A DNA stretch of 64,000 nt from Halorussus halophilus (lineage in GTDB: Archaea > Halobacteriota > Halobacteria > Halobacteriales > Haladaptataceae), in the NCBI RefSeq assembly GCF_008831545.1, contig NZ_CP044523.1:434001-498000 (forward strand), written 5' to 3'. This document shows positions 1-25,547 of the stretch, one piece after another. The position numbers and the translations under genes were made by a program. The notes below the pieces were generated by a model that saw only the letters and a list, made by a program, of their open reading frames with translations, was not told where the DNA came from and made no database searches. Position 1 is the first letter of the stretch. Every line of letters begins with the position of its first letter.

Positions 1-198
1 GCGCTGAGTTCGCGGGTCAAATCCACGGGAACAGCAATCCAAGACAAAGTGACCGATGGCGGGAGTTCGCCTTCGAGTCAGTCGTCTCAGACAGGGTCTA
101 GTAGTCGTGACGTCACGTTCACCAACTTGCGGTCTGACGAGCAGTCGAATCGTTCTGCGAACACGCCTGAATCGACAGACAGAGATACGAAAGAATGA
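1..198 (+). CDS. C-terminal end of an upstream gene (partial, hydrophilic tail)
   Basis: The first reading frame is open from base 1 to a TGA at 196-198, giving 65 residues that are very rich in Ser, Thr, Asp, Gln and Asn and have no hydrophobic segment. The stop overlaps the ATG of the next gene (ATGA at 195-198). The same coupling joins the next two genes, so this is probably the last part of the preceding gene in one operon. In conjugation-type clusters a large membrane protein of the VirB6/TrbL kind often lies before the VirB4 gene, but nothing in this tail proves that identity. The rest of the gene lies outside the window. Confidence 0.6.
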   Translation, partial: ALSSRVKSTGTAIQDKVTDGGSSPSSQSSQTGSSSRDVTFTNLRSDEQSNRSANTPESTDRDTKE

Positions 199-3310: not shown

Positions 3311-4717
3311 ATGGTTTCGGGACACCGGTATCGAATTACGAGCGTGGCCGGGACGGTCGGCGTGACCACACTCTCGTTGTTGGTCGCCAACACGCCTGCC
3401 GTCCAGTCGACACTGACCACGCTCGTGCCGGTGTTCCGACGACTTCCAGCAACATCGTTATACGGGGATTCGTACGTCCTCGCACTTGCGACGACGCTAT
3501 TCGTTGTTTGTGCCAGTCTCGTCCCACTGTTCAAACCTCGCCCTCGGCGGATTCTTGACGCGATACTTATTACGCACAAACGAGTCGTCCTCGCTGGGGT
3601 TGCGCTGGCCGCTATCGGCTACTTTGACTACACGTATCGACTGCCCCGCTCGACGCTCGTGTTGACGATGCTGGGCTTGCTGGTAACGCTTCCCGCGTGG
3701 TTCGTCGTCATTCGACGCCGACCATCAAGTGAATGTTGTGCCGTCGTCGTCGGTGACGACCCCGAGGAGATACTCGCAGTAATCGAGGCCACCGACATAC
3801 CTGTTGTTGGATACGTCTCACCGCCAAGCCCATACTACTCATCAGATGAATCTCAGCTTGGCCAGCCTGCTGTCACCGCCGGTGGTGGGAAGTCTCCACT
3901 GAATGATCTCGACTGTCTAGGCGGACTTTCACGATTGGATGAAGTGCTCGTCGAACACGATGTCGATACTGCATTGCTCGCGTTCGCTACACCAGATCGT
4001 GCGGAGTTCTTTGGCGCGCTAGACGCCTGCTATGAGCACGGTGTCGAAGCAAAGGTACATCGCAACTATACAAATGACGTATTGACTGTCTCCACTAGTA
4101 ATCAGGGGGTGCTCGTCGATATCGATCTTGAACCCTGGGACTGGCAGGATTACGTGTTCAAACGCGTATTTGACGTGATGTTCGCTGTCGTCGGGTTGTT
4201 CGCGTTCGCACCGGCACTGGCTGTCATCGCAGTGGCAGTAAAACTCGATAGCCCTGGACCAGTATTCTATAGTCAAAAGCGGACTGCAGAATTTGGCGAG
4301 ACGTTTGAAGTGTACAAGTTCCGGAGCATGGTTCCTGAAGGCGAATCGGTAGTACCAAGCGAAGACGACCAGAACGACCGAATCACGCGTATTGGTAGTA
4401 TTCTGCGGCGAACTCACTTGGACGAGCTGCCTCAACTATGGGCGATACTGACCGGTGAAATGAGCGTCGTCGGTCCCCGAGCGGTCTGGACTGACGAGGA
4501 GATTTTGCTCGAAGAAACCGCCGACGCGTGGCGTAAGCGGTGGTTTGTCAAACCTGGGTTGACGGGATTAGCTCAAATTCACGGTGCAAAGAGTACAGAC
4601 CCTGAAGTGAAACTCCGGTACGACCTAGAGTATATTCAGCACCAATCTTTTTGGTTTGACGTGAAAATCGTAATCCGGCAAGTCTGGCAGGTCTTGTGCT
4701 CACTTACGAGAATTTAG
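3311..4717 (+). CDS. Polyprenyl-phosphate sugar-1-phosphate transferase (initiating glycosyl-phosphotransferase)
   Basis: A 468-residue membrane protein with four or five N-terminal hydrophobic segments (about 10-130), a middle nucleotide-binding-like domain, and a C-terminal bacterial sugar transferase domain from about residue 275. The family signatures are KRVFDVMFAVVGL, SPGPVFYSQKR, YKFRSM, THLDELPQLW, VVGPRAV and KPGLTGLAQIHG. This layout matches WbaP/WcaJ-type enzymes, which move a sugar-1-phosphate from an NDP-sugar to a membrane polyprenyl phosphate and so start a repeat unit. Its place at the head of a cluster with glycosyltransferases, flippase and polymerase fits this job. The sugar and the lipid carrier cannot be told from sequence. 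Confidence 0.88.
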   Translation: MVSGHRYRITSVAGTVGVTTLSLLVANTPAVQSTLTTLVPVFRRLPATSLYGDSYVLALATTLFVVCASLVPLFKPRPRRILDAILITHKRVVLAGVALAAIGYFDYTYRLPRSTLVLTMLGLLVTLPAWFVVIRRRPSSECCAVVVGDDPEEILAVIEATDIPVVGYVSPPSPYYSSDESQLGQPAVTAGGGKSPLNDLDCLGGLSRLDEVLVEHDVDTALLAFATPDRAEFFGALDACYEHGVEAKVHRNYTNDVLTVSTSNQGVLVDIDLEPWDWQDYVFKRVFDVMFAVVGLFAFAPALAVIAVAVKLDSPGPVFYSQKRTAEFGETFEVYKFRSMVPEGESVVPSEDDQNDRITRIGSILRRTHLDELPQLWAILTGEMSVVGPRAVWTDEEILLEETADAWRKRWFVKPGLTGLAQIHGAKSTDPEVKLRYDLEYIQHQSFWFDVKIVIRQVWQVLCSLTRI

Positions 4718-4765
4718 GGAAACGAAAGAGAAAAACACTAATTGTACCGCTCAAAGACCACCGTT

Positions 4766-6157
4766 ATGAGCGACGAACCGAACGTGTTTGTTCTTTCGGC
4801 TGACTCTCTTAGCCAAAAGTATTTTTCCGAGTTTCTTCCGGAGTTAGCTGACCTCGTCGATGGTGTTGCTTTCACCGATGCGATTGCTACAGCTTCGGAT
4901 ACTAATTCGGCAATGCCGGGATTGGCAGCAAGTGTTTATTCCGATACTGTCCCAGGATGGGGACTACCGGATGAAGACTCGCCGACGACGATTGCAGAAA
5001 AACTCTCAGACAGTGGATATAGTTGCGGTCTATGGACTGACAACTACCTTTTTGGGAAGGAATATAACTACGCTGCTGGCTTCACAGCGGGAAATCTTGG
5101 AGCACCGACTTGGAAGAAAAAACTTGTAAATGTTATCCGTGAAAGTCCATTCGAACCTACACTGAGTCTTGCTGAATGGGCGTATTTCAACGTTTTCTCG
5201 GACATAAAAGGGAAAATTGCATCCGAAGAGTCATTCTATCGAACTGCCGCAGACCTACATACAGAAGGACTAGAATGGCTTCAGAAAACTAGTGATCATC
5301 CGGTGTTCTGCTGGATTCACTATATGGATACACATCATCCATATGAGCCGCCGAACGACTACTTCGAATCAATGTCATTCAACGGCAACTGGAGTCGTTC
5401 GAAGCTTGGTGAGTTCACTCGAACCGTCATCAAGTCAAACGGAGAAGGGTTCTCCGACTCTGAGATTGATGACGTCAGAAAGGCCTACACGGCGTGCTGT
5501 CGTTACCTTTTCGACGAAGTTCACGAATTCATCCAGCAACTAATTCAAGAAGGCCATTTCGATCCAGAAAAAGACGTTCTCGCTTTCACAGCAGACCACG
5601 GAGAGTGCCTTAGTCCCAAAGAGTACAGGATGATGGGACACGTACCTCCCGCATTCTGGGAAGAGATAGTTAATGTACCACTACTCATCAGCAGACCTGA
5701 CTGGGATCACGGAACCGTTGATGGTCAGGTGAGTACACTGGACTTGATGCCAACGCTACTTGATGCAGTCGGAATAGAATCTCCAAATTCAGTAGAAGGC
5801 ATTCCACGCCAAGAGCCGGATGATGCTATCGTTGAGCATGCCGAATTTGTATCGGAGTGGCAAGCAACTGACTGGGATTCTCGTCAGACGTACCGTGGTA
5901 TTCGTACAGATACAGATTGGAAGTTATTTGGTGCTCATCTCGATGGGGACGATACAGGAGTTATCACTCAGCGTTCGACTAACGGAAGGGAAGAGGAACT
6001 TTATTCTGGAAATACCGCTCCTAAAGGCGACTTAGGAAATCGCTGGGGTGAACTTTCATCTCAGTTTGAGCGTGGTAGCATTTTGGGAACCAACGAGAAG
6101 ATCGACACAGACGAATCCATTGAGGATCACCTACGGGATCTTGGTTACGTCGAATAG
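4766..6157 (+). CDS. Sulfatase / alkaline-phosphatase-fold enzyme 1 (no formylglycine motif)
   Basis: I chose the ATG at 4766 rather than the in-frame TTG 24 bases earlier because the protein then starts just before the first fold strand NVFVLSADS. The 463-residue product has the alkaline-phosphatase superfamily core: Asp13 as probable metal ligand, HYMDTHHPYEPP, FTADHGE and MGH. At the place of the sulfatase Cys/Ser-x-Pro-x-Arg motif it has TNSAMPGLAAS (from Thr46), so formylglycine cannot form. Family members with Thr as nucleophile, such as LtaS and EptA, move phosphorylated groups. Its place among glycan genes suggests decoration or trimming of a polysaccharide (inference). The gene is less GC-rich than the housekeeping genes to the right. 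The downstream GT4 gene is convergent, 4 bases away. Confidence 0.75.
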   Translation: MSDEPNVFVLSADSLSQKYFSEFLPELADLVDGVAFTDAIATASDTNSAMPGLAASVYSDTVPGWGLPDEDSPTTIAEKLSDSGYSCGLWTDNYLFGKEYNYAAGFTAGNLGAPTWKKKLVNVIRESPFEPTLSLAEWAYFNVFSDIKGKIASEESFYRTAADLHTEGLEWLQKTSDHPVFCWIHYMDTHHPYEPPNDYFESMSFNGNWSRSKLGEFTRTVIKSNGEGFSDSEIDDVRKAYTACCRYLFDEVHEFIQQLIQEGHFDPEKDVLAFTADHGECLSPKEYRMMGHVPPAFWEEIVNVPLLISRPDWDHGTVDGQVSTLDLMPTLLDAVGIESPNSVEGIPRQEPDDAIVEHAEFVSEWQATDWDSRQTYRGIRTDTDWKLFGAHLDGDDTGVITQRSTNGREEELYSGNTAPKGDLGNRWGELSSQFERGSILGTNEKIDTDESIEDHLRDLGYVE

Positions 6158-6161
6158 TCTA

Positions 6162-7421
6162 CTAGTGGTTGACCTTCGACAGGCAGTCTTGGTATTGGCT
6201 GATAGACCGCTGCTTATTGAACTTCTGATCAAAGACCTTTCGAGCTCTTTCTCCCATCTCCTTGACTAAGTCCGGATTATCCAGCCACTGCATAATTGCG
6301 GATACAATTTGATCGGGGGATTCTGGATCCACCCGAATACCACAATCAGTCCGTTCGACAACCTGACCAATCTCAGAGTCTGGTTTCGAGATTGCTAGAA
6401 CTGCTTGGCCGCTGGCGAGTGCAGTGTAGAACTTGCTCGAAACGCAGAGTCCTTCAACGCCTTCCTCCATAGTTACGAGTGCAATGTCGCCGGATGTTAG
6501 TGAGTCAGGAAGGGCGTCTTTAGGCTGGTACGGGAGAAACGAAACCGTATTCAAACCGTAGTCGTCGACCATATCCTTTAATATTGGTTTTTTACCGCCT
6601 TCACCGATAAAGAGGAATTTAAGTTTATCAGGATGCATTTTCTCAAGGATTTTTGCGGCATCAATAACACTCTCTAAATCATGGTGAAGGCCTAGGTTTC
6701 CAGAGTATAGAACTGTTGTTGGTTCTACAAGGTCGTTTTCCTTTGAAAATTCATTCTTTGACTTCTTCTGAGGTTGGATAAACTCACCGTCTTCCCAGTT
6801 GTGAATAACCGTCACATCGCACTCCTCACCGTACTTCTCTATAAGTGTCTCTTCCATAGTTTCACCGATAGTTATCACTTCGTCAGCTTGGCTATATGCG
6901 CGATAATTGAGCCAATCCCAGAATCGATAAACAAATCCACTTTCTGATAAATATCCTAATTGAACTGCCATGTCTGGATAGAGGTCGTACACGACTGGAA
7001 CGTATTGATAACCTCGGAGATTCTTAACTAGCCATCCGAGAATGGGCAGAAAGGGTGGTGCAGTCGGAAGTAAGAGAAGACGTTTTTCTCTATCAAGCAG
7101 GAGTGAGACAAACGCGCTAATAAAAAATGAAATGTCATTTAGAAGTCGATACTTTGTCCCTTCATTTTTATTAAACCTAGTTGACAATATTCGGCGAATT
7201 GAAACGCCCTTGTGAACCTCTTTCCTTGGTTCCGTACGCTCTCTGTCTGACGAAGAATATGCAGGTTGCGCAGTCAATACATCCACATCCACATCACGTT
7301 CAGCGAGACCAGTTGCCAGTTCAGTTAATATTGCAGAATTAGCAGATGTATCCGGATAAAAGAATTGCGTTACTAATCTTACTCGAAGTCTTTCTGCTGG
7401 ACTACTGGATTCGTTGGTCAT
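6162..7421 (-). CDS. Glycosyltransferase family 4 (WbuB-like)
   Basis: A 419-residue GT-B protein. The start at 7421 (ATG, MTNESSSPAERLRVRLV) is preferred over an extension of 25 residues because a GGGGAG ribosome site lies just before it and the first strand RVRLVTQFFYPDTSANS is typical of WbuB-like enzymes. Other family features are YSGNLGLHHDLESVI at the domain junction and the nucleotide-sugar loop EGLCVSSKFYTALASG. The latter carries the C-terminal acidic region, although the usual glutamate pattern is relaxed. Enzymes of this type add a sugar to a lipid-linked glycan at the inner face of the membrane. It is convergent with the preceding sulfatase-fold gene and divergent from the epimerase pair. 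The stretch is AT-rich for a haloarchaeon, which suggests transfer. Confidence 0.82.
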   Translation of the reverse strand: MTNESSSPAERLRVRLVTQFFYPDTSANSAILTELATGLAERDVDVDVLTAQPAYSSSDRERTEPRKEVHKGVSIRRILSTRFNKNEGTKYRLLNDISFFISAFVSLLLDREKRLLLLPTAPPFLPILGWLVKNLRGYQYVPVVYDLYPDMAVQLGYLSESGFVYRFWDWLNYRAYSQADEVITIGETMEETLIEKYGEECDVTVIHNWEDGEFIQPQKKSKNEFSKENDLVEPTTVLYSGNLGLHHDLESVIDAAKILEKMHPDKLKFLFIGEGGKKPILKDMVDDYGLNTVSFLPYQPKDALPDSLTSGDIALVTMEEGVEGLCVSSKFYTALASGQAVLAISKPDSEIGQVVERTDCGIRVDPESPDQIVSAIMQWLDNPDLVKEMGERARKVFDQKFNKQRSISQYQDCLSKVNH

Positions 7422-7557
7422 AGTTACTCCCCAATAGAAACTCACCTCATAATAAACAACTGAATACGGTCTGTGGATGCTAACTCTATTGACCACGGTT
7501 CGATAGCAGTTAGGAGAAAAGCACAGGAATTAGGTACCCTAATGAGAGGGGAAATAT

Positions 7558-8568
7558 ATGGACTGGAAAGAAGCCAGAGTCCTCGTAACAGGTGGTGCCG
7601 GATTCATCGGTAGCCACCTCAGTGAACGCCTCCTTGAACTCGGTTGTGAGGTTGTCGTTGCAGACGACTTCTCGCGCGGTTCTCCGGACAAGATCGAACA
7701 TCTTCTCGACGACATCGAACTCCGAACAGTCGATTTGACGACCCACAAAGGTTGTGTCGAGGCGACCGAAGGCGTCGACCACGTCTTCCATCTTGCGGCG
7801 ACCGTCGGCGGAATTCACTACATCAAGCGCGAAAATGTCGGCGGCCTCACTCCGAGTGTGTTGATGAACCAGAACATGCTCGAAGCGGCCCGAATCAACG
7901 ACGTGGACCGATTCCTCTTTGCGTCCAGCGCGTGCATTTACCGTCAGCAACACGACGACCTCAATCGATTCAGTGAAGACCAAGCGATTCCGGCCGACCC
8001 GCATAGTACGTACGGGTGGGCGAAGGTCCTCGGCGAGGTTGCCTGTCAGGCCTATCACGATGACTGCGATCTTGAAACGTCGATGGTCCGGATTTTCAAC
8101 TGCTATGGAACGCGAGAGAGTCTTGATCCGGACAGTAGCCACGTCATCCCGTCGCTGTGCCGGAAGGTCATCGAGGAACCGGATGGTGGGTCTATCGAAC
8201 TGTTCGGTGACGGAACTCAAGAGCGCGGATTCATCTACGTCACCGACCTCGTCGAAGGAATGATCCGTGCCATCGAAGCGAAGTCCGATGGCGAACCGAT
8301 CAACCTCGGGAACGGCGACGAGGTGGTCAGTATGAACGAACTCGCAGAAACCATCATCGACATCAGTGGCAAAGACATCTCAATCGAACACGATCTCTCG
8401 AAACCGACAGGTACGGACAAGTACGCTGCCGACGATACGAAAATGAAAGACGCACTCGACTGGGAACCGACGGTAAGACTCGAAATCGGAGTCAAAGAGG
8501 TCTATGACTGGGCGACCGACGAACTGGACGCCGAGAAGGCAGCTTCCAAGGCAGGTGAGGCACAATGA
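7558..8568 (+). CDS. NAD-dependent epimerase/dehydratase 1 (GDP-mannose 3,5-epimerase-like)
   Basis: A 336-residue extended short-chain dehydrogenase. It has the Rossmann motif TGGAGFIGSH (residues 11-20) and the catalytic set SSACIY plus YGWAK. The 'SSACIY' and 'RIFNCYGTRES' stretches resemble GDP-mannose 3,5-epimerase and related NDP-sugar enzymes, but the substrate is not certain. The ATG at 7558 follows a GAGGGG ribosome site. The TGA overlaps the ATG of the next epimerase gene (8565-8568), so the two are co-translated and may act one after the other on one sugar nucleotide. The role is supply of a modified sugar for the surrounding glycan locus. Confidence 0.85.
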   Translation: MDWKEARVLVTGGAGFIGSHLSERLLELGCEVVVADDFSRGSPDKIEHLLDDIELRTVDLTTHKGCVEATEGVDHVFHLAATVGGIHYIKRENVGGLTPSVLMNQNMLEAARINDVDRFLFASSACIYRQQHDDLNRFSEDQAIPADPHSTYGWAKVLGEVACQAYHDDCDLETSMVRIFNCYGTRESLDPDSSHVIPSLCRKVIEEPDGGSIELFGDGTQERGFIYVTDLVEGMIRAIEAKSDGEPINLGNGDEVVSMNELAETIIDISGKDISIEHDLSKPTGTDKYAADDTKMKDALDWEPTVRLEIGVKEVYDWATDELDAEKAASKAGEAQ

Positions 8569-9581
8569 GCTTCGACGGAGAGAACGTCCTCGTCACGGGT
8601 GGCGCGTCGTTCATCGGCAGTCATCTCGTCGAGGACCTCGTTGCAGAGGGTGCAAACGTCAGAGTTGCAGACGACTTCTCCAGCGGGACGACGGAGAACC
8701 TCGGGGCAGTGCGAAACCAAATCGAAATCGCGGACGGCAACCTCAAGCAATGGGAGTTCGCCGACGAAGCCACGAAAGATATCGATCGTGTCTTCCACCT
8801 CGCGGCCGACCACGGTGGTCGCGGGTACATCTCGAACTACCCGGCAAACTGTGCCACCAACATGGCGCTGGACAACATCGTGTTCGAGACTGCAGTTGAG
8901 AACGGTGTCGACAAGATCACGTTTGCATCCAGTGCGTGTACCTACCCGACCGACATCCAGCAGGAGAAGCGACGCCTCCAAGAAGACATGGTGAGCTTCG
9001 ACGAACGCGGCGGGGCGTACGCAGACGAAGCCTATGGATGGGCGAAACTCATGGGCGAACGTTCACTGCAGGCGTTCCACGAACAGTACGGCGTGGACAC
9101 AAGCGCGGTTCGAATTTTCACCGCGTACGGTCCACGCGAAAACGAGACGCACGCTATCGTTGCGCTCATCGCTAAGGCCTACGCGGAACAAGACCCGTAT
9201 CAGATTTGGGGCGACGGCGAACAAACCCGCAACTTCACCTACGTCTCCGACATCGTGAGCGCGCTTATGCTCGCCAACGAGAACATTTCGGACGGGACAC
9301 CGGTCAACGCTGGGATTCCGGAGTACATCTCCATCAACGAAGTAGCCGAAGCCATCTTCGACTACCTCGATTGGGAACCTGAAGAAGTCAACCGCATGAC
9401 CGACAAGCCAGTTGGGGTTCGCCATCGGGCCGCCGACACGACCCGGGCCGAGGAACTACTCGGCTGGGAACCAGAGTACAGTCTCCAGGACGGGATGGCC
9501 GAGACCATCGACTGGTACGCCGAGAACCGGGAGAAGGAGTACGTCCAGGAGAATCTACAGACGCTGCTGCACGAGCGGTGA
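8565..9581 (+). CDS. NAD-dependent epimerase/dehydratase 2
   Basis: A 338-residue extended short-chain dehydrogenase that is a diverged relative of its upstream partner. It has SSACTYP, AYGWAK (catalytic Tyr and Lys), RIFTAYGPRE and a C-terminal substrate domain. The dinucleotide motif reads TGGASFIGSH, with Ser where the second Gly of GxxGxxG normally stands, whereas the partner keeps Gly. The ATG overlaps the partner's stop. The pair probably works in one pathway to an epimerised or dehydrated NDP-sugar. A T7 tract 37-43 bases after the stop may end the transcript. The substrate is unknown. Confidence 0.85.
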   Translation: MSFDGENVLVTGGASFIGSHLVEDLVAEGANVRVADDFSSGTTENLGAVRNQIEIADGNLKQWEFADEATKDIDRVFHLAADHGGRGYISNYPANCATNMALDNIVFETAVENGVDKITFASSACTYPTDIQQEKRRLQEDMVSFDERGGAYADEAYGWAKLMGERSLQAFHEQYGVDTSAVRIFTAYGPRENETHAIVALIAKAYAEQDPYQIWGDGEQTRNFTYVSDIVSALMLANENISDGTPVNAGIPEYISINEVAEAIFDYLDWEPEEVNRMTDKPVGVRHRAADTTRAEELLGWEPEYSLQDGMAETIDWYAENREKEYVQENLQTLLHER

Positions 9582-9617
9582 CGGTCCGCCCACTTCGGAT
9601 ACGGAGATAATAAGAGC

Positions 9618-9624
9618 TTTTTTT
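9618..9624 (+). terminator. T-tract after the epimerase pair
   Basis: Seven T residues follow the second epimerase stop and precede the next gene, which points the same way. Archaeal termination often needs only a T-rich run. There is no clear hairpin, and the tract could instead be part of the promoter zone of the sulfatase-fold gene that starts at 9646. Confidence 0.3.
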
Positions 9625-9645
9625 GGGCAACTAAGACGGTAAGAC

Positions 9646-11091
9646 ATGAATGTCCTCGTCTACGTCTTGGATGCGCTCCGCGCAGATCATCTCTCCTGTT
9701 ACGGGTATGAGCGTGAAACGTCACCTAATATCGATAGGTTAGCCGACGAAGGTATCGTGTTCGAGCAGTGTTTTACCCCCGCGACTTGGACCCGTCCCGT
9801 TGCTGGCTCGATTCTCTCGGGGTCGTATCCCCCGACACACGGAACCCAAACGAGACACGATACTTTCCACCCGCACGTTCCATCGCTCGCAGAACAGTTT
9901 CGGACGGCAGGATTCGAGACAGTAGGGATTACCACGATGGGTAACGTCTCGTCTGCGGTCGGATTCGACGCCGGGTTCGACGAGTTTTACGACCTCTACA
10001 AGGACGAACAGGTCATCGCTGAGCGACGTACTTCCACAGTTAGCGAAGAAGAACTCACCGAAGAGGACGTAGAAAAAGTCGCGTTGCCACGCGCCGAGGA
10101 TATCAACGACATCTTCGAGCGATGGCTCGGCGAACGTGACGGCGACGATCCTTTTTTTGCGTTTGCGTGGTCTATCGAACCCCACATACCGTACGACCCC
10201 CCCGAAGGGTTCCGGGAGTACGTCGCCTCGGACTACGACGGGCCAGTCGATGGCGAGCGTGAGTGCCTAAAGCAAGTTGAGACAGCGGCAGATTTGAACC
10301 AATTGAAGGGACTCTACGATGGCGAAATAGCCTACAACGACGCCTGTCTCGGAGAACTACTCGACCACCTTCGAGACGCCGATATCTTGGACGAGACACT
10401 GGTCGTCGTCGTCGGCGACCACGGCGAAGCGTTCAACGAACACGGCCGTCTCACCCATGGGCACGCGCCGTACGACGAGCTAATGCACGTCCCGTTCGTG
10501 GTACGAGCGCCAGACGGAGCGAACGGCTTTCGGGCACAGGATTTGTGTAGCTTGATAGACATGTATCCGACAGTACTAGAGTACGCTACGGACGGGAGTG
10601 TCTCATTGGAGAACGTTCAAGGTTCGTCACTAGCGGATGCTCTTGCCGGAACCCCGACCGATGTACACGACTACGTATTCGCCAAGACTGACACGTACGA
10701 CATGCAAAACACGTTCTACGGCGTCAGGTCGGATACGTGGAAATACATCGACGTGGAAACGCCCGACAAAGGCGGGCGAAATCTACTCGAACTCGTGAAA
10801 TACGTCTTCGAGAAAGGAGTCCTCACGGACATTCTACGGAACCCGCGGTACTATCTCAATCGGTATCGGTACTCCGAAACGGAGTTTCTGTACAACCTCC
10901 TCGAAGATCCAGAGGAACGGACGAACCTCGTGGAGGTCGACCCCGACCGTCACGCCCGATTCGAGGACCTACTCGAAGCGTGGCATGAAGACTGTGTGAG
11001 GATTCGAGAGCAGTCTGCCGAAAATCGGACCGAGGTCGAGATCGACGACGCCACACTCGAACAGTTACAGCAGTTGGGCTACAGCGAATAG
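9646..11091 (+). CDS. Sulfatase / alkaline-phosphatase-fold enzyme 2 (Thr nucleophile)
   Basis: A 481-residue enzyme with a full sulfatase-like fold. It starts NVLVYVLDALRADHLSCYGY, where Asp9 is the probable metal ligand and the D-x-x-R pattern is normal. Further on it has SPNIDRLADEG, SIEPHIPYDPP, VVVGDHGEAFNEHG and LTHGHAPYDE. The active-site segment is ATWTRPVAGSILSG: Thr49 aligns with the formylglycine Cys, and the canonical Arg is displaced, so this is not a standard arylsulfatase. The C-terminal part (FLYNLLEDPEERTNL) is the usual sulfatase tail. It lies between the epimerases and a convergent GT4 gene. Likely roles are transfer or hydrolysis of a phospho- or sulfo-substituent on the glycan (inference). 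Both metal-binding halves look intact. Confidence 0.8.
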   Translation: MNVLVYVLDALRADHLSCYGYERETSPNIDRLADEGIVFEQCFTPATWTRPVAGSILSGSYPPTHGTQTRHDTFHPHVPSLAEQFRTAGFETVGITTMGNVSSAVGFDAGFDEFYDLYKDEQVIAERRTSTVSEEELTEEDVEKVALPRAEDINDIFERWLGERDGDDPFFAFAWSIEPHIPYDPPEGFREYVASDYDGPVDGERECLKQVETAADLNQLKGLYDGEIAYNDACLGELLDHLRDADILDETLVVVVGDHGEAFNEHGRLTHGHAPYDELMHVPFVVRAPDGANGFRAQDLCSLIDMYPTVLEYATDGSVSLENVQGSSLADALAGTPTDVHDYVFAKTDTYDMQNTFYGVRSDTWKYIDVETPDKGGRNLLELVKYVFEKGVLTDILRNPRYYLNRYRYSETEFLYNLLEDPEERTNLVEVDPDRHARFEDLLEAWHEDCVRIREQSAENRTEVEIDDATLEQLQQLGYSE

Positions 11092-11100
11092 TTGGTGGTT

Positions 11101-12312
11101 CTACTCGGTAGTGGGGTTCGCTAGCGTCTCGTAGATACCGGCATACGCCGCATAATTACTGTACATATCGAATCGTTCGGCGAACCGGTCTCTCGGCATG
11201 TCCGACGTGTCCGTAACTGCGCTGGTCACGGCGTCGGCAAACGCCGTCGAATCCTCGCGGTCGACGAGGTAACACCCCGGCAAGTCCTTGAAAGCGCCAG
11301 CGATTCCAGTCACGTCCGAGGCAACTATCGGGGTCTGCATGGCACACGATTCTTGTAAAATACGGGGGACACCCTCACTCTCGGGTTCCGAAAGAAGCAC
11401 GACGGCGTTGGCGGCGGCGAGCAAGTCAGGAACGTCTTCGAAGGGAACTCGCTTGGAATGGAGGACGACTCGTTCGCTAACGTCTCGTTGAAGCTCACGG
11501 AACTGACGTTCAAACGCTTCGTTGCGGAACTCTCCGACGAAGGCAAGCATCACGTCGTCCGGGAGTTCGTCATCTGCCGCCGCGATGAGTTCCAGTACCT
11601 TGTCGGGACCTTTCTCCGGGAGAAGTTTTGCGAGATAGAGCGCGATGCTGTTACCAGCGAGAGCAGAGTCACCGAACAGTTCGGTTAATTTGTCGCCGCT
11701 ATCTGTAGTCTCCGGATCGAACAACTCGAAATCGACACCAGTCGGGCGTGTCGTGAATCCTGGATTGACGCCGAAAGTCTCTTTAACGAAATCTACCTGA
11801 TAGGTTGCTTTCGTGATAACGTGGTCGGTGTTCACGAGAACGAAGCTGGTCATCGCTCGAAGGATACGGTAGTTGATTGAGGGGCGAAGTGAATCGCTCT
11901 TTTCTGCAATCGCCTTGTATCGGGGCTCTTTGAGACCGCGAACGCTTACGACGAGTGGGACCGAAAACAGACGGCTGACGACGACGCCAGCTATCCCCCC
12001 GAGTGCGTAGTCAAGTGCATGGATTACTGGTGGAAGAGACCCTCGAACCCAGAGATACGTCATCACGAGAATAGCCTGCACGACGTGAAGGGGAAACACG
12101 ATCGGCTTGATCCATCCGGGTTCAACGAACGATCCTCGACTCGGGAGGAGATCGTAGACGATGACCCCCTTGCGTTGGGCGAGTCGATCGACTTCTGCTG
12201 GAGGCTTTGGGCGAATTACCACGAGTTCTTCGACGCTTTCTGCGATGGCCTCGACCCGCTCATCGAACGTCGTCGGCCAACCGTTGAGTTTCAGGATGAG
12301 TGCTTTGACCAT
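11101..12312 (-). CDS. Glycosyltransferase family 4
   Basis: A 403-residue GT-B glycosyltransferase. The N-terminal half contains one hydrophobic stretch around residues 70-90 (IVFPLHVVQAILVMTYL) and VRGLKEPRYK. The C-terminal half holds ALYLAKLLPEKGPDKVLELI, the usual start of the GT4 donor domain, and the E-x7-E-type loop SEPESEGVPRILQESCAM. The family transfers a sugar from an NDP donor to a growing lipid-linked glycan with retention of configuration. The gene is convergent with the preceding sulfatase-fold gene (10 bases apart) and divergent from the next one. Donor and acceptor cannot be inferred. Confidence 0.85.
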   Translation of the reverse strand: MVKALILKLNGWPTTFDERVEAIAESVEELVVIRPKPPAEVDRLAQRKGVIVYDLLPSRGSFVEPGWIKPIVFPLHVVQAILVMTYLWVRGSLPPVIHALDYALGGIAGVVVSRLFSVPLVVSVRGLKEPRYKAIAEKSDSLRPSINYRILRAMTSFVLVNTDHVITKATYQVDFVKETFGVNPGFTTRPTGVDFELFDPETTDSGDKLTELFGDSALAGNSIALYLAKLLPEKGPDKVLELIAAADDELPDDVMLAFVGEFRNEAFERQFRELQRDVSERVVLHSKRVPFEDVPDLLAAANAVVLLSEPESEGVPRILQESCAMQTPIVASDVTGIAGAFKDLPGCYLVDREDSTAFADAVTSAVTDTSDMPRDRFAERFDMYSNYAAYAGIYETLANPTTE

Positions 12313-12387
12313 GTCTAAGACGAACTGTGAGGAACTTCGTATATACAGTAATCGAGTCCCCCTAAATACAGCTTGCGAACCAAAGAC

Positions 12388-12396
12388 GTTAAAACT
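12388..12396 (+). promoter_or_regulatory. Possible TATA element for the sulfatase-fold gene at 12418
   Basis: The sequence GTTAAAACT lies about 22-30 bases before the ATG at 12418. That is the spacing expected for a haloarchaeal TATA box with a leaderless or nearly leaderless transcript. The space between the divergent GT4 gene and this gene is only about 105 bases, so both promoters must lie here. The call rests on position and composition alone. Confidence 0.35.
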
Positions 12397-12417
12397 CAGA
12401 GTACTAAGTCATAACCG

Positions 12418-13617
12418 ATGTCCGGGATTTCGGATATAGACGCGTCAAACGTCTTTCTTTACGTCGGCGATGCAGTACGATGGGATGCAGTACCGGAGTC
12501 GTTGTCACAGCGAGGAACCGTTTTCAAAACCGTCGCAGCGAGCATCCACACGCCGACGAGTTTTTCCTCAATAGTTACTGGACTGCAACCACCGCAACAC
12601 GGCGTTCGACAGTTCGGTGACTGTCTGAGTAATACGACACCCTCTCTTTTTACATTGGAGGGGGTCAAATCCCACTTTTCGAATACCATCAACGAGAAGT
12701 TCAACGATAATCCGAAAAGTGAAAGTATACTTGATAAGACCCTCGCAACGACAGAAAGTAAACCGGATGACATAGATGACGCAGAGCCGCCGTTTATTTT
12801 CGTCGAACGAGGACGCGGTGGACACGCCCCATACGGGGACTATCCCGGTAACGGTTGGGAGTACTATCGTGACCGAAAAGATACGTCAACCTCAACCTAC
12901 CGGACAGAATATCAGACGGGCGTCGAACGCGACATCGAACACTTCGAGTCGCAAGTCGAGAAGTTAGACGAGCGAGGCTTGCTCGAAGAGACGCTTGTGA
13001 TCTACACCAGCGATCACGGCGAACTTCTCGGAGAAGGCGGATGTGTCGGGCACAACACTCCGATTCGACCCGAGCTTGCGTACGTTCCGACGGTGTTCGT
13101 CCATCCCGACCTCAAACAGAAAACCGTAAAATCTGGCGTGCTTCGCCACGTTGACTTCTTCCCGACACTCGCTAGACTATTGGGTATCCAAGCCGACGGC
13201 GATGGAGTACCCGGACGAGATATCTTCTCGCAACCACTCGCCGATCAGGGGGCATGTTTCTACGACAAATCCGTCGTGCCAGAGTTACAGCCACTCATAA
13301 GCGGGCGTCTGCGGTTCGAATCAGTGTGGGAGGCAGATGGTGGATACGTGTTTCCGAACTCGGGGCAGATCAACCGTTCGGTGATTCTCGCCGGGAAATT
13401 ACTAAAAAGTGCGAAGCGGGAATACATGCGTAGTCGTCTGTGGGACGTTGCAAAGTTCTATCTCACTGGCGTTCGCTCGTACGATTCACCGGAGTTGACG
13501 GTTTCGGATGCCCGCAAGTACCTGGACCAGCTTGATGCACTTCCGAAATCCGAGTCAATAACACAGAGTACCGAGGTGAACGAAAAACAGTTACGGAATC
13601 TCGGCTACTTGAGCTGA
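12418..13617 (+). CDS. Sulfatase / alkaline-phosphatase-fold enzyme 3 (short, Thr at nucleophile site)
   Basis: A 399-residue member of the same superfamily, shorter than the other two. The N-terminus carries NVFLYVGDAVRWDAV, with Asp18 at the metal position. The active-site stretch HTPTSFSSIVTG aligns Thr45 with the formylglycine Cys and Phe49 with the canonical Arg, so the sulfatase signature is absent. TSDHGELLGEGG and VGHNTPIRPELAYVP supply the second metal half. The segment between these motifs is compressed. It lies between two convergent or divergent transferase genes in the glycan locus. It may be a phosphotransferase or phosphodiesterase acting on the glycan (inference). Confidence 0.72.
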   Translation: MSGISDIDASNVFLYVGDAVRWDAVPESLSQRGTVFKTVAASIHTPTSFSSIVTGLQPPQHGVRQFGDCLSNTTPSLFTLEGVKSHFSNTINEKFNDNPKSESILDKTLATTESKPDDIDDAEPPFIFVERGRGGHAPYGDYPGNGWEYYRDRKDTSTSTYRTEYQTGVERDIEHFESQVEKLDERGLLEETLVIYTSDHGELLGEGGCVGHNTPIRPELAYVPTVFVHPDLKQKTVKSGVLRHVDFFPTLARLLGIQADGDGVPGRDIFSQPLADQGACFYDKSVVPELQPLISGRLRFESVWEADGGYVFPNSGQINRSVILAGKLLKSAKREYMRSRLWDVAKFYLTGVRSYDSPELTVSDARKYLDQLDALPKSESITQSTEVNEKQLRNLGYLS

Positions 13618-13655: not shown

Positions 13656-14624
13656 TCACGACATTCGCTTTTCGACACGTCGCTTGAGGTTCTTTGCTCT
13701 GAATTTCGTCTCCTTGAGAAAGCCGAAGAAGAACTTCATTCCCCGTTCGCCGAAAAGCGTCGTCAATAATCTCACGTACACTTTCCATTTGGTAGGCGTG
13801 AGTCTTATTGCTCCGAGGAGTTGTTTCCGTGCCTTCGATGAGTCTCCGGTCGATGCATAGTAGCTTCCCCGCAAATACTTCAGGTGCGCTTTCCGGCGTT
13901 CGACTAACGGTTGTAACCTCGGGTACATCTCGATGAGTTTCGGAGTGATGAACTCTTCTCGGTACTCCAACTTCTTTAGTTTGTTCGAAGCTAAACTATC
14001 GTTTCTGACCCGGCGGCGGACGAGTGGTCGTGGAACCCGGTGGATTGGATACTCAGCTCCGATTCGCATCCACATGTCTAATTCCTGGGCGAGTCGGAGT
14101 TTTTCGTCGAAATAGCCGACCTGCTCGAAGCATTCCCGCCGAATTAACACGGTAGATGGAAGGATACCACCGACGCCTCCGACGAACGCGTTTTCGAGGA
14201 ATTGTGCTGGCGGGTCGTCAGCGCGCCGAACCGAAATTACGTCGTCTCCATTGGGTGTGACGCGGTAGTGGTCGGAAAACACCATCCCCACCGAGGGGCG
14301 ATCGCACATGGCGGCTACCTGCGTCGCCGTTTTTTCCGGCATCCATTTATCGTCAGCATCAAGTAATGCAATGAATTCCTCCGTAGAAGCACGGATGCCA
14401 GTATTACGGGCTGCCGGGAGCCCTCGATTCGTCTCGTGTTCAAGCAACTCAACGTCCCCGTTTTTGACGTACTCGGCAACTGCTGTTTCGACGTCGTCTG
14501 TCGATCCATCGTCGACGATGAATATTTCTTCTGGAACCCGAGTTTGTTCTAAAACGCTTTCGATAGCATCTGTCACGTACTCCGAGTCGTTGTAACAGGG
14601 AATGACGACACTGACCTTAGTCAT
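13656..14624 (-). CDS. Glycosyltransferase family 2
   Basis: A 322-residue GT-A enzyme. The start at 14624 gives MTKVSVVIPCYNDSEYV, the standard family start; the longer frame adds 17 unlikely residues. The nucleotide-binding motif VDDGS is at residues 37-41, and the metal-binding region is LLDADDKW. The C-terminus is basic (KRRVEKR) and may touch the membrane. Its ATG overlaps the last 8 bases of asnB, which lies upstream in the same direction, so the two are translated together. The family adds sugars with inversion to lipid-linked acceptors in the cytoplasm. Acceptor and donor are unknown. Confidence 0.87.
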   Translation of the reverse strand: MTKVSVVIPCYNDSEYVTDAIESVLEQTRVPEEIFIVDDGSTDDVETAVAEYVKNGDVELLEHETNRGLPAARNTGIRASTEEFIALLDADDKWMPEKTATQVAAMCDRPSVGMVFSDHYRVTPNGDDVISVRRADDPPAQFLENAFVGGVGGILPSTVLIRRECFEQVGYFDEKLRLAQELDMWMRIGAEYPIHRVPRPLVRRRVRNDSLASNKLKKLEYREEFITPKLIEMYPRLQPLVERRKAHLKYLRGSYYASTGDSSKARKQLLGAIRLTPTKWKVYVRLLTTLFGERGMKFFFGFLKETKFRAKNLKRRVEKRMS

Positions 14625-16476
14625 GACTTGCCTCCTTCGCGTTTGAGGGCTTCCATCGGCGGTACCAGAGTTCAAAGAGGATCAATCGCACGAGTTTGTG
14701 ATACGCAATCCCGGAATCGGCTACGTTTGACAACTCCTCGCTATCGAAGACGCCATCCCGTGCTGCCTCTGAGTCGTGTAGGATGTGCTTGTATCTATCG
14801 ACAAAGCCGAGTTCGCTCAGTGGAGCACCGAATCCCGACTTCTCTCGGTCGATGATGGACGATGGGAGGACGTTTCGGCCAATTTTCTTGAGCAAGTGCT
14901 TTTTTTCTCCGTTTTTATAAACGAGGTTAGAGTCCAACGATAACATATACTGTGCGAGTTTATGGTCAAGCAACGGGACACGTACTTCGAGGGAGTGCGC
15001 CATGCTCGCTCTATCGACTTTTGTCAGAATGTCGTCAACCATGAACGTATTCATGTCGAGCAGTTGCATGTCTTTTACGTCTAACTCGCCGTTACAATGA
15101 CGGGCGGGCACGTCGTCGGGGTTCGCTACTACGTACTCGTCGGTGAGTAACCCATCGAGTTCGTCGTCGTCGAAGGGCGGGTGCATTATCTGCTGATATC
15201 GGTCTATCCTAGATCGAGAAAACGGAAGGAACCGGCGACTTACCGCGTTCAACAGACTGCTATCGAGTCGCTTCCCTAAATCGAACGTCGTTTGCCCGAT
15301 GATACCGAGTATCTGATCCATTGGCCTGAGACGCTGGTACTGAAGGTACGTTTCGTACCACGTGTATCCTGCGAAGATCTCATCACCACCGTCACCGGAA
15401 AGTGCGACCTTTACGTTGTCGCTCACCTCCTGCATCAAGAGATACGTCGGGAACACAGAGCTGTCCGACAACGGTTCGTCGTAATAATATAGAATCTCGT
15501 CAAGTAGCTCGTCGAGCCCTGTCGCAGACAGATTTTCCGTGTGATGGTTCAAATCGAACGTCTCTGCGACTTTCGCGGCATGTGAGAGTTCGTCGTCGCT
15601 ATCAGTGTCGAAACCAAGTGAGAATGCCGACAAACCGTTGGAAACCCGTGACGCCAGCGCCGAAACGATACTTGAATCGAGACCGCCACTCAGAAGGACT
15701 CCAATCGGCACATCGCTTGTGAGATGCGATTCGACTGCATCTTCGAGCCTCCGTTCGATTTCCCGAAGTGCAACTTCTTCGTTACCACCATCGTCTACGT
15801 AATCGTATGGATTCCAGTACTGTTCGATGGTAGATTCACCGTTCTCAAAAACGAGGGTGCAACCTGGTTTTAATTTCCGTATGTTTTCCCAAATAGTATA
15901 CGGCGCGGAAATGTACCGATAGCGAAGATAGTGCCTGAGACCCACCGGATCTATATTCCGGTCGATTGATTTATCCGAAAGAATCCCCTTTAACTCGGAT
16001 GCGAAAATAAATCGTCCGTCACACTGAAAGTAATACAGGGGTTTGATACCCAACCGATCACGTGCGAGAAACAATCGGTCTCGGGACTCGTCCCAAATAC
16101 CGAACGCGAACATCCCCCTGAGCCGTTCGACGCAGTTTGTCCCCCACTCCTCGTAGCCGTGGACAATGACCTCGGAGTCCGTTTCGCTTCGAAAATCATG
16201 ACCAGCGTCCTCTAACTGTGAGCGAAGGTCCTTGTAGTTGTAGATTTCGCCGTTGAACACCAGCCAGATTGACTCGTCTTCGTTGGGCATCGGCTGGTCG
16301 CCAGCTGAACTTAAATCGATAATGGAGAGTCGTCGATGACCGAGTGCGACCGTTTCCGAGTCGTTTAGATATAAACCCTCCCCATCGGGGCCCCTATGAG
16401 ATAGTTCGTCTCGCATCTGCTGGAAGGTACGGACGTTGAGGGGGTCTCTAGCCACTTCACCGATAATGCCACACAT
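14617..16476 (-). CDS. asnB: Glutamine-hydrolysing asparagine synthase-like amidotransferase
   Basis: A 619-residue protein. The start at 16476 puts the catalytic Cys at position 2 (MCGIIGEV), as required after Met removal for an N-terminal nucleophile glutaminase; the 6-residue extension would bury it. The glutaminase domain covers about residues 2-190 (SHRGPDGEG, FNGEIYNY). The synthetase domain follows, with the pyrophosphate loop LSGGLDSS near residue 265 and SGDGGDEIFAGY. AsnB makes asparagine from aspartate, ATP and glutamine. Homologues inside polysaccharide clusters often amidate uronic acids, and that is equally possible here because it is coupled to a GT2 gene. A TATA-like GATTAAAAAG (minus strand) lies 30-40 bases before the start. 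Confidence 0.88.
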   Translation of the reverse strand: MCGIIGEVARDPLNVRTFQQMRDELSHRGPDGEGLYLNDSETVALGHRRLSIIDLSSAGDQPMPNEDESIWLVFNGEIYNYKDLRSQLEDAGHDFRSETDSEVIVHGYEEWGTNCVERLRGMFAFGIWDESRDRLFLARDRLGIKPLYYFQCDGRFIFASELKGILSDKSIDRNIDPVGLRHYLRYRYISAPYTIWENIRKLKPGCTLVFENGESTIEQYWNPYDYVDDGGNEEVALREIERRLEDAVESHLTSDVPIGVLLSGGLDSSIVSALASRVSNGLSAFSLGFDTDSDDELSHAAKVAETFDLNHHTENLSATGLDELLDEILYYYDEPLSDSSVFPTYLLMQEVSDNVKVALSGDGGDEIFAGYTWYETYLQYQRLRPMDQILGIIGQTTFDLGKRLDSSLLNAVSRRFLPFSRSRIDRYQQIMHPPFDDDELDGLLTDEYVVANPDDVPARHCNGELDVKDMQLLDMNTFMVDDILTKVDRASMAHSLEVRVPLLDHKLAQYMLSLDSNLVYKNGEKKHLLKKIGRNVLPSSIIDREKSGFGAPLSELGFVDRYKHILHDSEAARDGVFDSEELSNVADSGIAYHKLVRLILFELWYRRWKPSNAKEASHD

Positions 16477-17004
16477 CTCTGTATCTCTGTCCAAAGCCGG
16501 TCTCCCTTTTTAATCTTTCAATATCTCGTATCCAACCTTGGGTTAACAGTACTGCTGTTTAGCTCGGTGCAAAGTCGTTGCTATCTACCCAAACTAGTCA
16601 ATTCAAACCCTCTTTGAAATATGGCCGGATATGTTTTGGAAATCCTAACCTGCCCGAACTGGCGTGGTGGTTTGTGTAGCGTCTAGTTCGATGTCGCCAG
16701 CGAAAACAGTCCGATTCAGTTTTCGACCTGCAACTCCTCATTTTCTTTTCGATGGGGGTTTCCGGTTCTCCACTACGGTCAATCCTGTAGCGATGACTTG
16801 TTCGGAAAGTACGTGGAAACGTATTAACGAAGTCCTCTCAACCCGGAGGAATTGAGATGAAGGATGAGGCAGTGCGTTTTTGGATAGCGCTATACTTGAC
16901 ACTATACGCCTCAGTAAGGATAGCGACTGAATCGAAGGTGACACCGACACAGATCGCCTGCTCCACGTTTTAATCTCTCCGACCAGACCTAGTCGATTAC
17001 CAGA
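16477..17004. other. Long spacer upstream of asnB
   Basis: About 530 bases between asnB and the transposase remnant hold the likely asnB promoter (minus strand, near 16507-16516). I found no other feature. Short open frames on both strands have no recognisable protein features or start signals. With the adjoining remnant the gap reaches 780 bases, large for this locus, which fits past insertion and decay. Confidence 0.5.
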
Positions 17005-17256: not shown

Positions 17257-18666
17257 ATGGTGTCGTCTGATACACTGAAGCTCACGACCGCGCGCGGTCT
17301 CTCAACGGTCCTGATGTTCACTGGAATCTCTCTCTTTACTCGGGTACTCCCCCCGTCTACACTTGGCACGTTCTTTTTGTTCGAAGGTGTGTTACTAGGA
17401 CTCCGCCTCATCGCGGATGCTGGCCTAGACGACGCAATGAAAAAACGGATGAGTGAAACCGACAGTCCCGAAGCCATTCTCTCGACCGCCCTCGCGTTGA
17501 AGCTATTCCCCCTTCTCGCCGTACTCGTTGGCCTTCTGGCCGCGAAGTCATTCGTCTCTGACTATCTCGCGCCAACACTCTTCCCGTTCCTACTAGCCGG
17601 CGTCATCCTCCAGGAGGCTGCTTACACCACGCTGAGCATTCTAAGCGGCGAGCGAACACCCGGCAAACGAGCACTGCTCGAGGCGGGCCGATACCTCGTC
17701 TGGATTCTTGTCGGCCTGCCACTCGTACTGTCAGATTGGGGTGCGCGCGGACTAGCTACGGGCTGGCTTGCCGGATTCGCCTTTGTCTTCCTCGCTGGCT
17801 GGCTTCGTACGACAACCCGTCTCTCGTTTCCACGCCGCGAACTCGTGTCGTCACTGACGACATTCGCGTTCTATGCGGGGCTTGGCAGTGTGAGTAGCGT
17901 TGCATTTAATTGGGCGGATGTCCTCCTACTAGGGCATTTCCAGACACCAGCAGTCGTCTCCGAGTATGAAGTTTCGTGGCGCGTCTCCCGTGTTGCATTA
18001 CTCCTCCCAGCGGCTATTCGGACGGCAATTGTCCCACGGTTGAGCAACCGGCAGGCCGCGGGCGACTGGATAGCTGTCCGAAACCTGTTTTCAACGGCGT
18101 TCTTCTACGTCCTCCTGTTACCGATTCCTATCGCCGTTGGCGCAGTCTTCGTGGGAGGACCACTACTGTCAGTCGCGTTCACACCGGAGTACGCGGACGC
18201 TTGGCTTATCCTCACTGTTCTCGCCATGGGACAGGTTGCTGCTGCGGTGAGTACATTTGTCGGGCCGGGCATCGAAGCCGTTAACAAGCCACGACTGGCG
18301 ACCCGGGGTATTCTCGTCGGGTTTATCCTCAACCTCAGCCTCAACGTGGCTTTGATTCCCCGGTACGGCGCGATAGGCGCGGCCGCGGCAACAACACTCA
18401 GTCTTATCGGCCAACTCGTTGTACTGGCGTGGGCTTTCACGGGACTCCCCCGTATCACAGTTCCTGCTGTCATCCCCGATCTAAGGCACTTCGCGGTGGC
18501 CGTCGGGTTGATGGCGGCCGTGGTTGGTGGCCTCCTCCACGTCATTTCAGCGGAAGATGTGGTTAGCGTTGCTGTTATCATTGCGGCCGGAGGCGTGACC
18601 TATGGACTTGCACTTACTGGGTTGCCAACGCCACTCCGTGACGTTTTAGAAGAGCGGAAGAAATAA
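17257..18666 (+). CDS. Wzx-like polysaccharide flippase (MATE/MVF superfamily)
   Basis: A 469-residue integral membrane protein with about 12-14 hydrophobic segments over its whole length and short polar loops. The N-terminal stretch LTTARGLSTVLMFTGISLFTR, the central FNWADVLLLGHFQTP and the C-terminal GPGIEAVNKPRLATRGI are typical of oligosaccharide flippases. Such proteins move lipid-linked repeat units across the cytoplasmic membrane. With the sugar-phosphate transferase at 3311 and the polymerase-like gene at 20295 it completes a Wzx/Wzy-type set. The start codon at 17257 fits the first charged residues (MVSSDTLKL). The methyltransferase gene follows 25 bases later and is probably co-transcribed. 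Confidence 0.85.
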   Translation: MVSSDTLKLTTARGLSTVLMFTGISLFTRVLPPSTLGTFFLFEGVLLGLRLIADAGLDDAMKKRMSETDSPEAILSTALALKLFPLLAVLVGLLAAKSFVSDYLAPTLFPFLLAGVILQEAAYTTLSILSGERTPGKRALLEAGRYLVWILVGLPLVLSDWGARGLATGWLAGFAFVFLAGWLRTTTRLSFPRRELVSSLTTFAFYAGLGSVSSVAFNWADVLLLGHFQTPAVVSEYEVSWRVSRVALLLPAAIRTAIVPRLSNRQAAGDWIAVRNLFSTAFFYVLLLPIPIAVGAVFVGGPLLSVAFTPEYADAWLILTVLAMGQVAAAVSTFVGPGIEAVNKPRLATRGILVGFILNLSLNVALIPRYGAIGAAAATTLSLIGQLVVLAWAFTGLPRITVPAVIPDLRHFAVAVGLMAAVVGGLLHVISAEDVVSVAVIIAAGGVTYGLALTGLPTPLRDVLEERKK

Positions 18667-18691: not shown

Positions 18692-19339
18692 ATGGAGTCA
18701 GTAAAGAAAATCCTGCGGACAGTCCGTGATGAAGTTTACCGAATCGGCAACGAAATACGCTTGGTCTCTCCGGACCAAATATATGACGAAGACTGGTATG
18801 AGCGCATGGCGAACGACCCGCAATTACGCGCGGACGTAGAGCACATCGTCAACGTCCTCTACCAGGAGTTCCAGCCAGCATCCGTTATCGATTTAGGATG
18901 TGGTGTCGGCCACTACCTCAATAGCTTCCAGAAACGTGGCGCGAGCATCCACGGTGTTGAGGGTGCAGTCAGCGCATTCAATCACCTGCAGGTTCCAAAG
19001 TCGACGGTAGAACACCATGATCTTCGAACACCTTATTCAACGTCAGACAATTATGACCTCGTCGTGTGCTTCGAGGTAGCCGAACACCTTCCAGAATCCG
19101 CAGCGGAAACGCTGGTGGACTCTATCACAGGCTGTGGGCAGACTGTCACGTTCACGGCAGCGACGCCCGGCCAGAGCGGCACTCATCATATCAACCTACA
19201 ACCTCACGGATACTGGATTGACCTGTTTGAGAAACGCGGCTACGAGTACCGGGCTGAGCGAACACGAGAACTTCAAGAGGAAATGACGGTTGATGCGGCA
19301 ACTTGGATTCCGAAGAACTTGATGTTATTCTCGCGGTGA
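18692..19339 (+). CDS. Class I SAM-dependent methyltransferase
   Basis: A 215-residue protein with the SAM-binding motif VIDLGCGVGHYLNSF near residues 64-78, an acidic second strand (IHGVEGA) and a third motif DLVVCFEVAEHL. The size and the 'EVAEHLP' stretch fit small-molecule O-methyltransferases of the UbiG/Methyltransf_11 type. It follows the flippase gene closely on the same strand. A plausible job is methylation of a sugar in the repeat unit or capping of a chain end (inference). It ends the compact part of the locus before a long spacer. Confidence 0.8.
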   Translation: MESVKKILRTVRDEVYRIGNEIRLVSPDQIYDEDWYERMANDPQLRADVEHIVNVLYQEFQPASVIDLGCGVGHYLNSFQKRGASIHGVEGAVSAFNHLQVPKSTVEHHDLRTPYSTSDNYDLVVCFEVAEHLPESAAETLVDSITGCGQTVTFTAATPGQSGTHHINLQPHGYWIDLFEKRGYEYRAERTRELQEEMTVDAATWIPKNLMLFSR

Positions 19340-25405: not shown

Positions 25406-25547
25406 CGCTGTTCTTCTCCGCTCCCCTCCGAACAGCGTCTCTGTGCTTCTGGACGATTGGGCCGGGTCCTTCGCCAAGCGGAGCCGTCTCCCCGCGATCC
25501 GAAGACGTTTCCTCAACGAGGCGTTCCATGCGCTCAAGAATTGATAA
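25398..25547 (-). pseudogene. Truncated antitoxin of the PIN toxin
   Basis: The minus-strand frame ending with TGA at 25398-25400 encodes SILERMERLVEETSSDRGE, then PLGEGPGPIVQKHRDAVRRG and an acidic end. This is the C-terminal, toxin-binding type of tail of a VapB-like antitoxin. It overlaps the toxin start by 8 bases. The N-terminal DNA-binding part is missing because the sequence switches near 25545 to a truncated gene on the other strand. An internal ATG at 25529 could still yield a 43-residue peptide able to bind the toxin (inference). Confidence 0.55.

Follow-up and report, generated by a model that had tools for sequence, protein, structure and literature searches.

Sulfatase-fold proteins acting in haloarchaeal glycan assembly have been described in Halobacterium salinarum, wherein Agl30 (VNG1056C) and Agl31 (VNG1057C) sulfate the N-glycan (mBio 2025, PMC11980604). 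When VNG1056C or VNG1057C is deleted, most of the corresponding N-glycan sulfate is lost, and Haloferax volcanii expressing either of them adds a group that was read as sulfate (PMC11980604). Agl31 is cytosolic and Agl30 is membrane-associated; the best DALI match was reported to be 5g2u for VNG1056C as well as for the further protein VNG1063H, and 6hhm for VNG1057C, with no mention of an active-site nucleophile (PMC11980604). Here we consider three sulfatase-fold proteins, S1, S2 and S3, from the chromosome of Halorussus halophilus, an archaeon of the same order as Halobacterium. They are encoded in a stretch of 64,000 nucleotides (contig positions 434001-498000, hereafter the window) as follows:

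4766..6157, + strand: S1, sulfatase-fold protein of 463 amino acids (PF00884, E 9.6e-22; reading frame open from a TTG at 4742)
9646..11091, + strand: S2, sulfatase-fold protein of 481 amino acids (PF00884, E 8.2e-48)
12418..13617, + strand: S3, sulfatase-fold protein of 399 amino acids (PF00884, E 5.3e-18)

All three are uncharacterised members of a haloarchaeal family of Ser/Thr-type sulfatase-fold proteins. By analogy with Agl30 and Agl31, the balance tips slightly toward their being cytosolic group transferases that decorate a lipid-linked repeat unit, most likely with sulfate.

Active site and fold of S1, S2 and S3

An earlier note on this DNA had proposed three sulfatase-fold proteins at these positions, with the metal-binding halves of the superfamily retained and Thr replacing the formylglycine motif at the nucleophile site. 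The open reading frames are indeed present, and their significant full-domain matches to PF00884, along with the presence of metal ligands, place the products in the alkaline-phosphatase superfamily. The formylglycine-dependent sulfatases (SulfAtlas family S1) are defined by a [CS]-x-P-x-R motif that undergoes conversion to formylglycine (PMC5066984). This motif is absent from all three proteins, which instead carry TNSAM, TRPVA and TPTSF, respectively, at the site; in an alignment with E. coli anchors the leading Thr falls on the Cys/Ser of the formylglycine-type sulfatases and on a Thr of EptA. Specifically, the site of S1 comprises Thr46 (TASDTNSAMPGL), the ligands Asp13 and Asp277-His278, and the further conserved His190 and His292; that of S2 comprises Thr49 (PATWTRPVAGSIL), Asp9, Asp258-His259, and His180 and His271; and that of S3 comprises Thr45 (SIHTPTSFSSI), Asp18, Asp199-His200, and His136 and His212. 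The shared layout consists of an Asp ending strand 1, an Asp-His pair after a later strand and a His in an HxP segment, with the second conserved His occupying the position of the Lys in the formylglycine-type sulfatase YidJ. The metal-binding halves are kept in part, as one N-terminal Asp and the C-terminal Asp-His, whereas the second acidic metal ligand is gone, as is the Arg of the C-x-P-x-R motif.

The nucleophile position is strongly conserved: Thr46 of S1 is kept in 30/30 homologues, Thr49 of S2 in 7/7 close homologues and invariantly across a 21-row alignment, and the position of Thr45 of S3 is occupied by Thr in 20 and by Ser in 10 of 30 homologues. The structure-prediction check proposed in the earlier note was carried through for S1 (AlphaFold2; pLDDT 88.2, pTM 0.88) and S3 (pLDDT 88.1, pTM 0.91), with the Thr position being read from secondary structure rather than from distances. 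In both models the Thr opens a helix after strand 2 (Thr46 in helix 46-55, Thr45 in helix 45-54), and the Asp and Asp-His lie at the ends of core strands (7-12 and 271-276 in S1; 11-17 and 192-198 in S3). Judged by this secondary-structure placement, the models would seat the Thr with the geometry expected of a nucleophile. The nearest PDB folds of the S1 model are sulfatases and PMH, and the best for the S3 model is the 2-O-sulfatase BT1596 (5g2u); across both models the matches comprise carbohydrate sulfatases, which are the best, choline sulfatase and PMH, with 6hhm present in both lists. By hydropathy, none of the three has a signal or transmembrane segment, the maxima (KD19) being 1.07, 0.87 and 0.88 for S1, S2 and S3 versus 2.2-2.5 for EptA, OpgB and LapC.

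Against the genomic background, the three proteins are not exceptional variants. This genome has 16 PF00884 genes, and the site is occupied by Thr in 13 of them, by Ser in two and by Cys (CSPTR) in a single one, such that Thr in three out of three has a probability of ~0.51. The occurrence of three PF00884 genes inside 9 kb is itself improbable under random placement (p = 0.006), and such clustering is seen repeatedly in haloarchaeal glycan loci. The 2016 SulfAtlas survey likewise found that 30/59 PF00884 seed sequences have the catalytic Cys/Ser replaced by Thr, and its authors held that Thr-type proteins are not acceptable as functional sulfatases without experiment (PMC5066984). The Thr of S1-S3 is conserved and functional-looking, yet ordinary for the group. 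Further, an FGE gene occurs once in this genome and was found in none of five relatives with the same gene family (the anSME route was not searched for); therefore, the Ser/Thr-type family appears to be independent of FGE. The sole Cys-type sulfatase of the genome lies ~0.5 kb from its sole FGE gene (contig C2, 287385-290072), unlike any of the Thr/Ser types. Four more sulfatase-fold genes, one of them Agl30-like, form a second cluster at 756227-765237 of the contig that holds the window, ~320 kb downstream of the left end of the latter.

Sulfate transfer weighed against other activities

The Hbt. salinarum proteins were sought in an assembly of the type strain, with an AglB identical to that of Hbt. 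salinarum DSM 3754. Its contig C17 (L031) encodes a 327-aa protein beside a soluble 459-aa one, followed by two glycosyltransferases and a 475-aa protein, and a hydrophobic stretch of the 327-aa protein fits the published transmembrane segment at 21-39. From gene order, size and topology these are likely Agl30, Agl31 and VNG1063H, respectively, the last of which (L031:1125-2552) is the highest-scoring Hbt. salinarum anchor. In L031 numbering, likely Agl30 has Ser87 at the nucleophile site, which is invariant in a 31-row alignment, and likely Agl31 has Ser43, invariant in six rows; VNG1063H has Thr, and its clade has Thr or Ser. Both likely Agl30 and Agl31 lack C-x-P-x-R and display the Asp, Asp-His and extra His seen in S1-S3. 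Thus, haloarchaeal sulfotransferases of this fold carry a hydroxyl residue without the formylglycine motif. The contig begins with what is, by eye, a transposase-like open reading frame (L031:3-521), which may explain its break from aglB in DSM 3754.

Hidden Markov models of the S1, S2 and S3 clades score best against VNG1063H (142, 153 and 80 bits), followed by YidJ (103, 107 and 50 bits) and Agl31 (95, 65 and 40 bits), with low scores against EptA (12, 34 and 26 bits) and OpgB (5, 2 and 2 bits). A quick tree of 57 rows, from which Agl30 was left out as too divergent and in which EptA, OpgB and LapC sit on very long branches with the deep order unresolved, was relied on solely for two features: the Cys/FGly-type clade (SH-aLRT 98) stands apart from S1, S2, S3 and Agl31, and each of these four forms its own clade.

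Since the formylglycine motif is absent and the layout is that of EptA, the active site makes group transfer a fair reading of these sequences. The preference for sulfate over phosphate comes from the precedent of Agl30 and Agl31 and not from any residue, as the layout of EptA is the same. Under such a mechanism, the nucleophile in place of formylglycine would be a Thr left unmodified, or a Ser in the case of some S3 relatives: the metal-bound Thr would attack the donor to give a covalent sulfo-Thr enzyme, which, having no formylglycine gem-diol, would hydrolyze slowly and could hand the sulfate to a sugar hydroxyl. Ser-substituted sulfatases trap the sulfated enzyme, and this is the basis of the proposed slow hydrolysis. 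S1-S3 would act in the cytosol on the polyprenyl-linked repeat unit before it is flipped, perhaps with one enzyme per position or sugar. In favour of this reading count the conserved hydroxyl and metal ligands, the lack of export or membrane segments, the setting in a glycan locus whose genes recur together in relatives, often close to Agl30-like genes, the carbohydrate-sulfatase fold matches (that of S3, 5g2u, being also the one published for VNG1056C and VNG1063H) and the five FGE-free relatives.

Several observations weigh against sulfate transfer by S1-S3. Sulfotransfer by Thr-type members is argued by analogy, whereas the genetically supported cases have Ser, and VNG1063H, the top Hbt. 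salinarum anchor and itself of the Thr type, had no effect on N-glycan sulfation upon deletion (PMC11980604). Moreover, Agl30 and Agl31 were assigned through gene order, size and the position of the transmembrane segment rather than by locus tag, and orthology of S1-S3 with either was not borne out: Agl31 forms a separate clade in the quick, partly unresolved tree, and phmmer comparisons of S1-S3 gave low scores against Agl31 and reported none against Agl30. The sulfate donor presents a further difficulty. PF01747 ATP sulfurylase was not found in this genome or in five others, including that of Hbt. salinarum (CysD/CysN were not searched for), and matches to APS kinase (PF01583) in the same six genomes are weak and mostly of the short P-loop kind; therefore, the donor is unaccounted for, even in Hbt. 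salinarum, which nevertheless has sulfated glycans. A candidate APS kinase of 184 amino acids near the locus (L231:8363-8917) was set aside, as its best score is to a generic P-loop/Pnkp-like kinase, and the PAPS pathway was dropped as a support for sulfation.

The earlier note had instead taken Thr as the mark of phosphotransferases and proposed phosphate decoration of the surface polymer. In its fuller form, this explanation would have S1-S3 equip the polymer with a phosphate-containing group, such as glycerol phosphate or the head group of an archaeal lipid, in the manner of EptA, LtaS or OpgB but on the cytosolic side. The Thr nucleophile, the single Asp/Glu with Asp-His and the second His at the Lys of YidJ are all EptA-like, S2 has weak partial matches to the NCBIfam EptA/CptA models, and the top BLAST match of VNG1063H, on which sulfation did not depend, is named as a member of the lipoteichoic acid synthase family (PMC11980604). 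However, likely Agl31, a sulfotransferase by genetics, has the same layout, which hence does not select phosphate. Nor is Thr by itself diagnostic, as likely Agl30 and Agl31 share the layout with Ser, either residue may stand at the site in the S3 and VNG1063H clades, and Thr predominates among the PF00884 genes of this genome; Thr is also known at the nucleophile site of NPP phosphodiesterases and is therefore no marker of phosphotransferases. Further, S1-S3 lack a membrane domain and reach 15-43 bits against the LtaS, EptA and OpgB families of NCBIfam, whose cut-offs are 404-1250; EptA and OpgB rank low among the anchors, no EptA or LtaS structure is found within the top 50 fold matches of the S1 and S3 models, and the annotated genes of the locus include none recognised as making a phospho-alcohol donor. 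Phosphotransfer is hence unlikely: the earlier argument stands insofar as the layout resembles that of group transferases, and fails in its step from Thr to phosphate.

As hydrolases, S1-S3 would be sulfatases or phosphodiesterases with an NPP-type Thr nucleophile, trimming or recycling intermediates (glycans or nucleotide sugars) that bear sulfate or phosphate. Such a function would agree with their best sequence and fold matches, which are hydrolases, and with PF01663 (Phosphodiest) exceeding its cut-off in S2 and S3. We consider it quite improbable: PF01663 also exceeds its cut-off in likely Agl31 (28 bits), a reported sulfotransferase, the formylglycine motif is absent, and the biosynthetic setting and the absence of an export signal make degradation of an external polymer an unlikely role. 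A non-catalytic role in binding or regulation, as for LapC/YejM of E. coli, is very improbable. The hidden Markov model of S1 does match LapC/YejM at 79 bits, and the quick tree loosely groups LapC with S1; however, S1-S3 keep the Asp-His and second His lost in LapC (AGRG versus SDHG), and their homologues show almost no variation in the nucleophile hydroxyl or the ligands.

Sulfate transfer to the repeat unit, which we prefer, bears on annotation. Annotation routinely labels the PF00884 products of haloarchaeal glycan loci as sulfatases, although most cannot be formylglycine sulfatases and at least two relatives, Agl30 and Agl31, build sulfate esters rather than break them. Should the Ser/Thr types prove to be sulfotransferases, this annotation would need to be reversed, and sulfated surface glycans could become predictable from sequence. 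In its broadest and rather doubtful form, haloarchaea would use a large sulfatase-fold family free of formylglycine, comprising 15 Ser/Thr-type genes out of 16 in this genome, as sulfotransferases via a sulfo-Ser/Thr intermediate, with activated sulfate coming from other than the PF01747/APS-kinase route and S1-S3 serving three positions on one Wzx/Wzy polymer. It also raises the question of the sulfate donor in Hbt. salinarum, given the above-noted search results for ATP sulfurylase and APS kinase.

The surrounding polysaccharide locus

As read from its predicted products, the genes around S1-S3 form a Wzx/Wzy-type locus for a surface polysaccharide built from repeat units:

3311..4717, + strand: polyprenyl-phosphate sugar phosphotransferase of the WcaJ/EPS_sugtrans type (PF02397, E 2.1e-59; TIGR03025, E 4.5e-83, at 280 bits slightly below the cut-off of 295.6)
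6162..7496, - strand: GT4-type glycosyltransferase (PF00534/PF13579)
7558..8568, + strand: NAD-dependent nucleotide-sugar epimerase/dehydratase A (PF01370, E 1e-53)
8565..9581, + strand: NAD-dependent nucleotide-sugar epimerase/dehydratase B (PF01370, E 1.8e-44)
11101..12312, - strand: GT4-type glycosyltransferase (PF00534, E 8.3e-19)
13656..14675, - strand: family 2 glycosyltransferase (PF00535, E 8.2e-32)
14617..16494, - strand: asparagine synthase-like amidotransferase (PF00733, E 2.1e-86; PF13537)
17257..18666, + strand: Wzx/MurJ-type flippase (PF03023, E 1.9e-12; weak NF041503 WZX_like)
18692..19339, + strand: S-adenosylmethionine-dependent methyltransferase (PF13489, E 1.1e-12)
20295..21887, + strand: Wzy-type repeat-unit polymerase (TIGR04370, E 1.1e-15; 57.5 bits versus a cut-off of 40)

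The WcaJ-type enzyme likely starts the repeat unit, and a sugar acid may be amidated by the asparagine synthase-like protein. With an AglB as the query, phmmer gave no match in the leftmost 26 kb of the window.

The linkage recurs in relatives. In a genome from a different family, homologues of S1, S2 and S3 all lie inside 8 kb on one strand, and pairs of them occur in four further genomes. Such loci also hold Wzx, Wzy, a phosphoglycosyltransferase or an epimerase pair, with the pair of epimerases A and B again adjoining the sulfatase-fold genes, and Agl30-like genes are present in seven of the 20 loci that were read.

The G+C content is about 0.47-0.61 across the glycan locus and the flank on its left (window 1-28000) versus 0.59-0.67 beyond 28 kb on the right, and this low-G+C region was possibly acquired. 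Left of the locus lie two adjoining genes (window 195-3130), the second of which is similar to ATPases of the VirB4/TraG type (AAA_10 and a weak TraG P-loop) and suggests a mobile element adjoining the glycan genes. An open reading frame at 25247-26722 combines a C1q-like domain (PF00386) with a weak pectinesterase-type match.

Comparison with known systems

The formylglycine-dependent sulfatases of SulfAtlas family S1, PMH and choline sulfatase (5g2u, 6hhm, 4uph, 6g5z) share their overall fold with S1-S3 and supply the best PDB matches, but differ in that S1-S3 lack [CS]-x-P-x-R and its Arg and have His replacing Lys. EptA resembles S1-S3 in fold, in the Thr nucleophile, in the single Asp/Glu with Asp-His and in the second His. 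However, EptA, OpgB and LtaS have an N-terminal multi-pass membrane domain that S1-S3 lack, act externally with lipid donors and show very weak sequence similarity. Agl7 of Haloferax volcanii, a further haloarchaeal protein, helps to sulfate a dolichol-phosphate-linked sugar (PMC3871713).

Like S1-S3, Agl30 and Agl31 are haloarchaeal sulfatase-fold proteins encoded among glycan-assembly genes and devoid of the formylglycine motif, and they conserve the hydroxyl position, the Asp-His and the extra His; Agl31 further resembles S1-S3 in being soluble and cytosolic. Unlike S1-S3, both have Ser instead of Thr at the site and serve the AglB N-glycan pathway rather than a locus of the Wzx/Wzy type. 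The VNG1063H clade compares with S1-S3 in being the top anchor for all three clade models, in having Thr or Ser at the nucleophile site and in the type of locus in which it is found.

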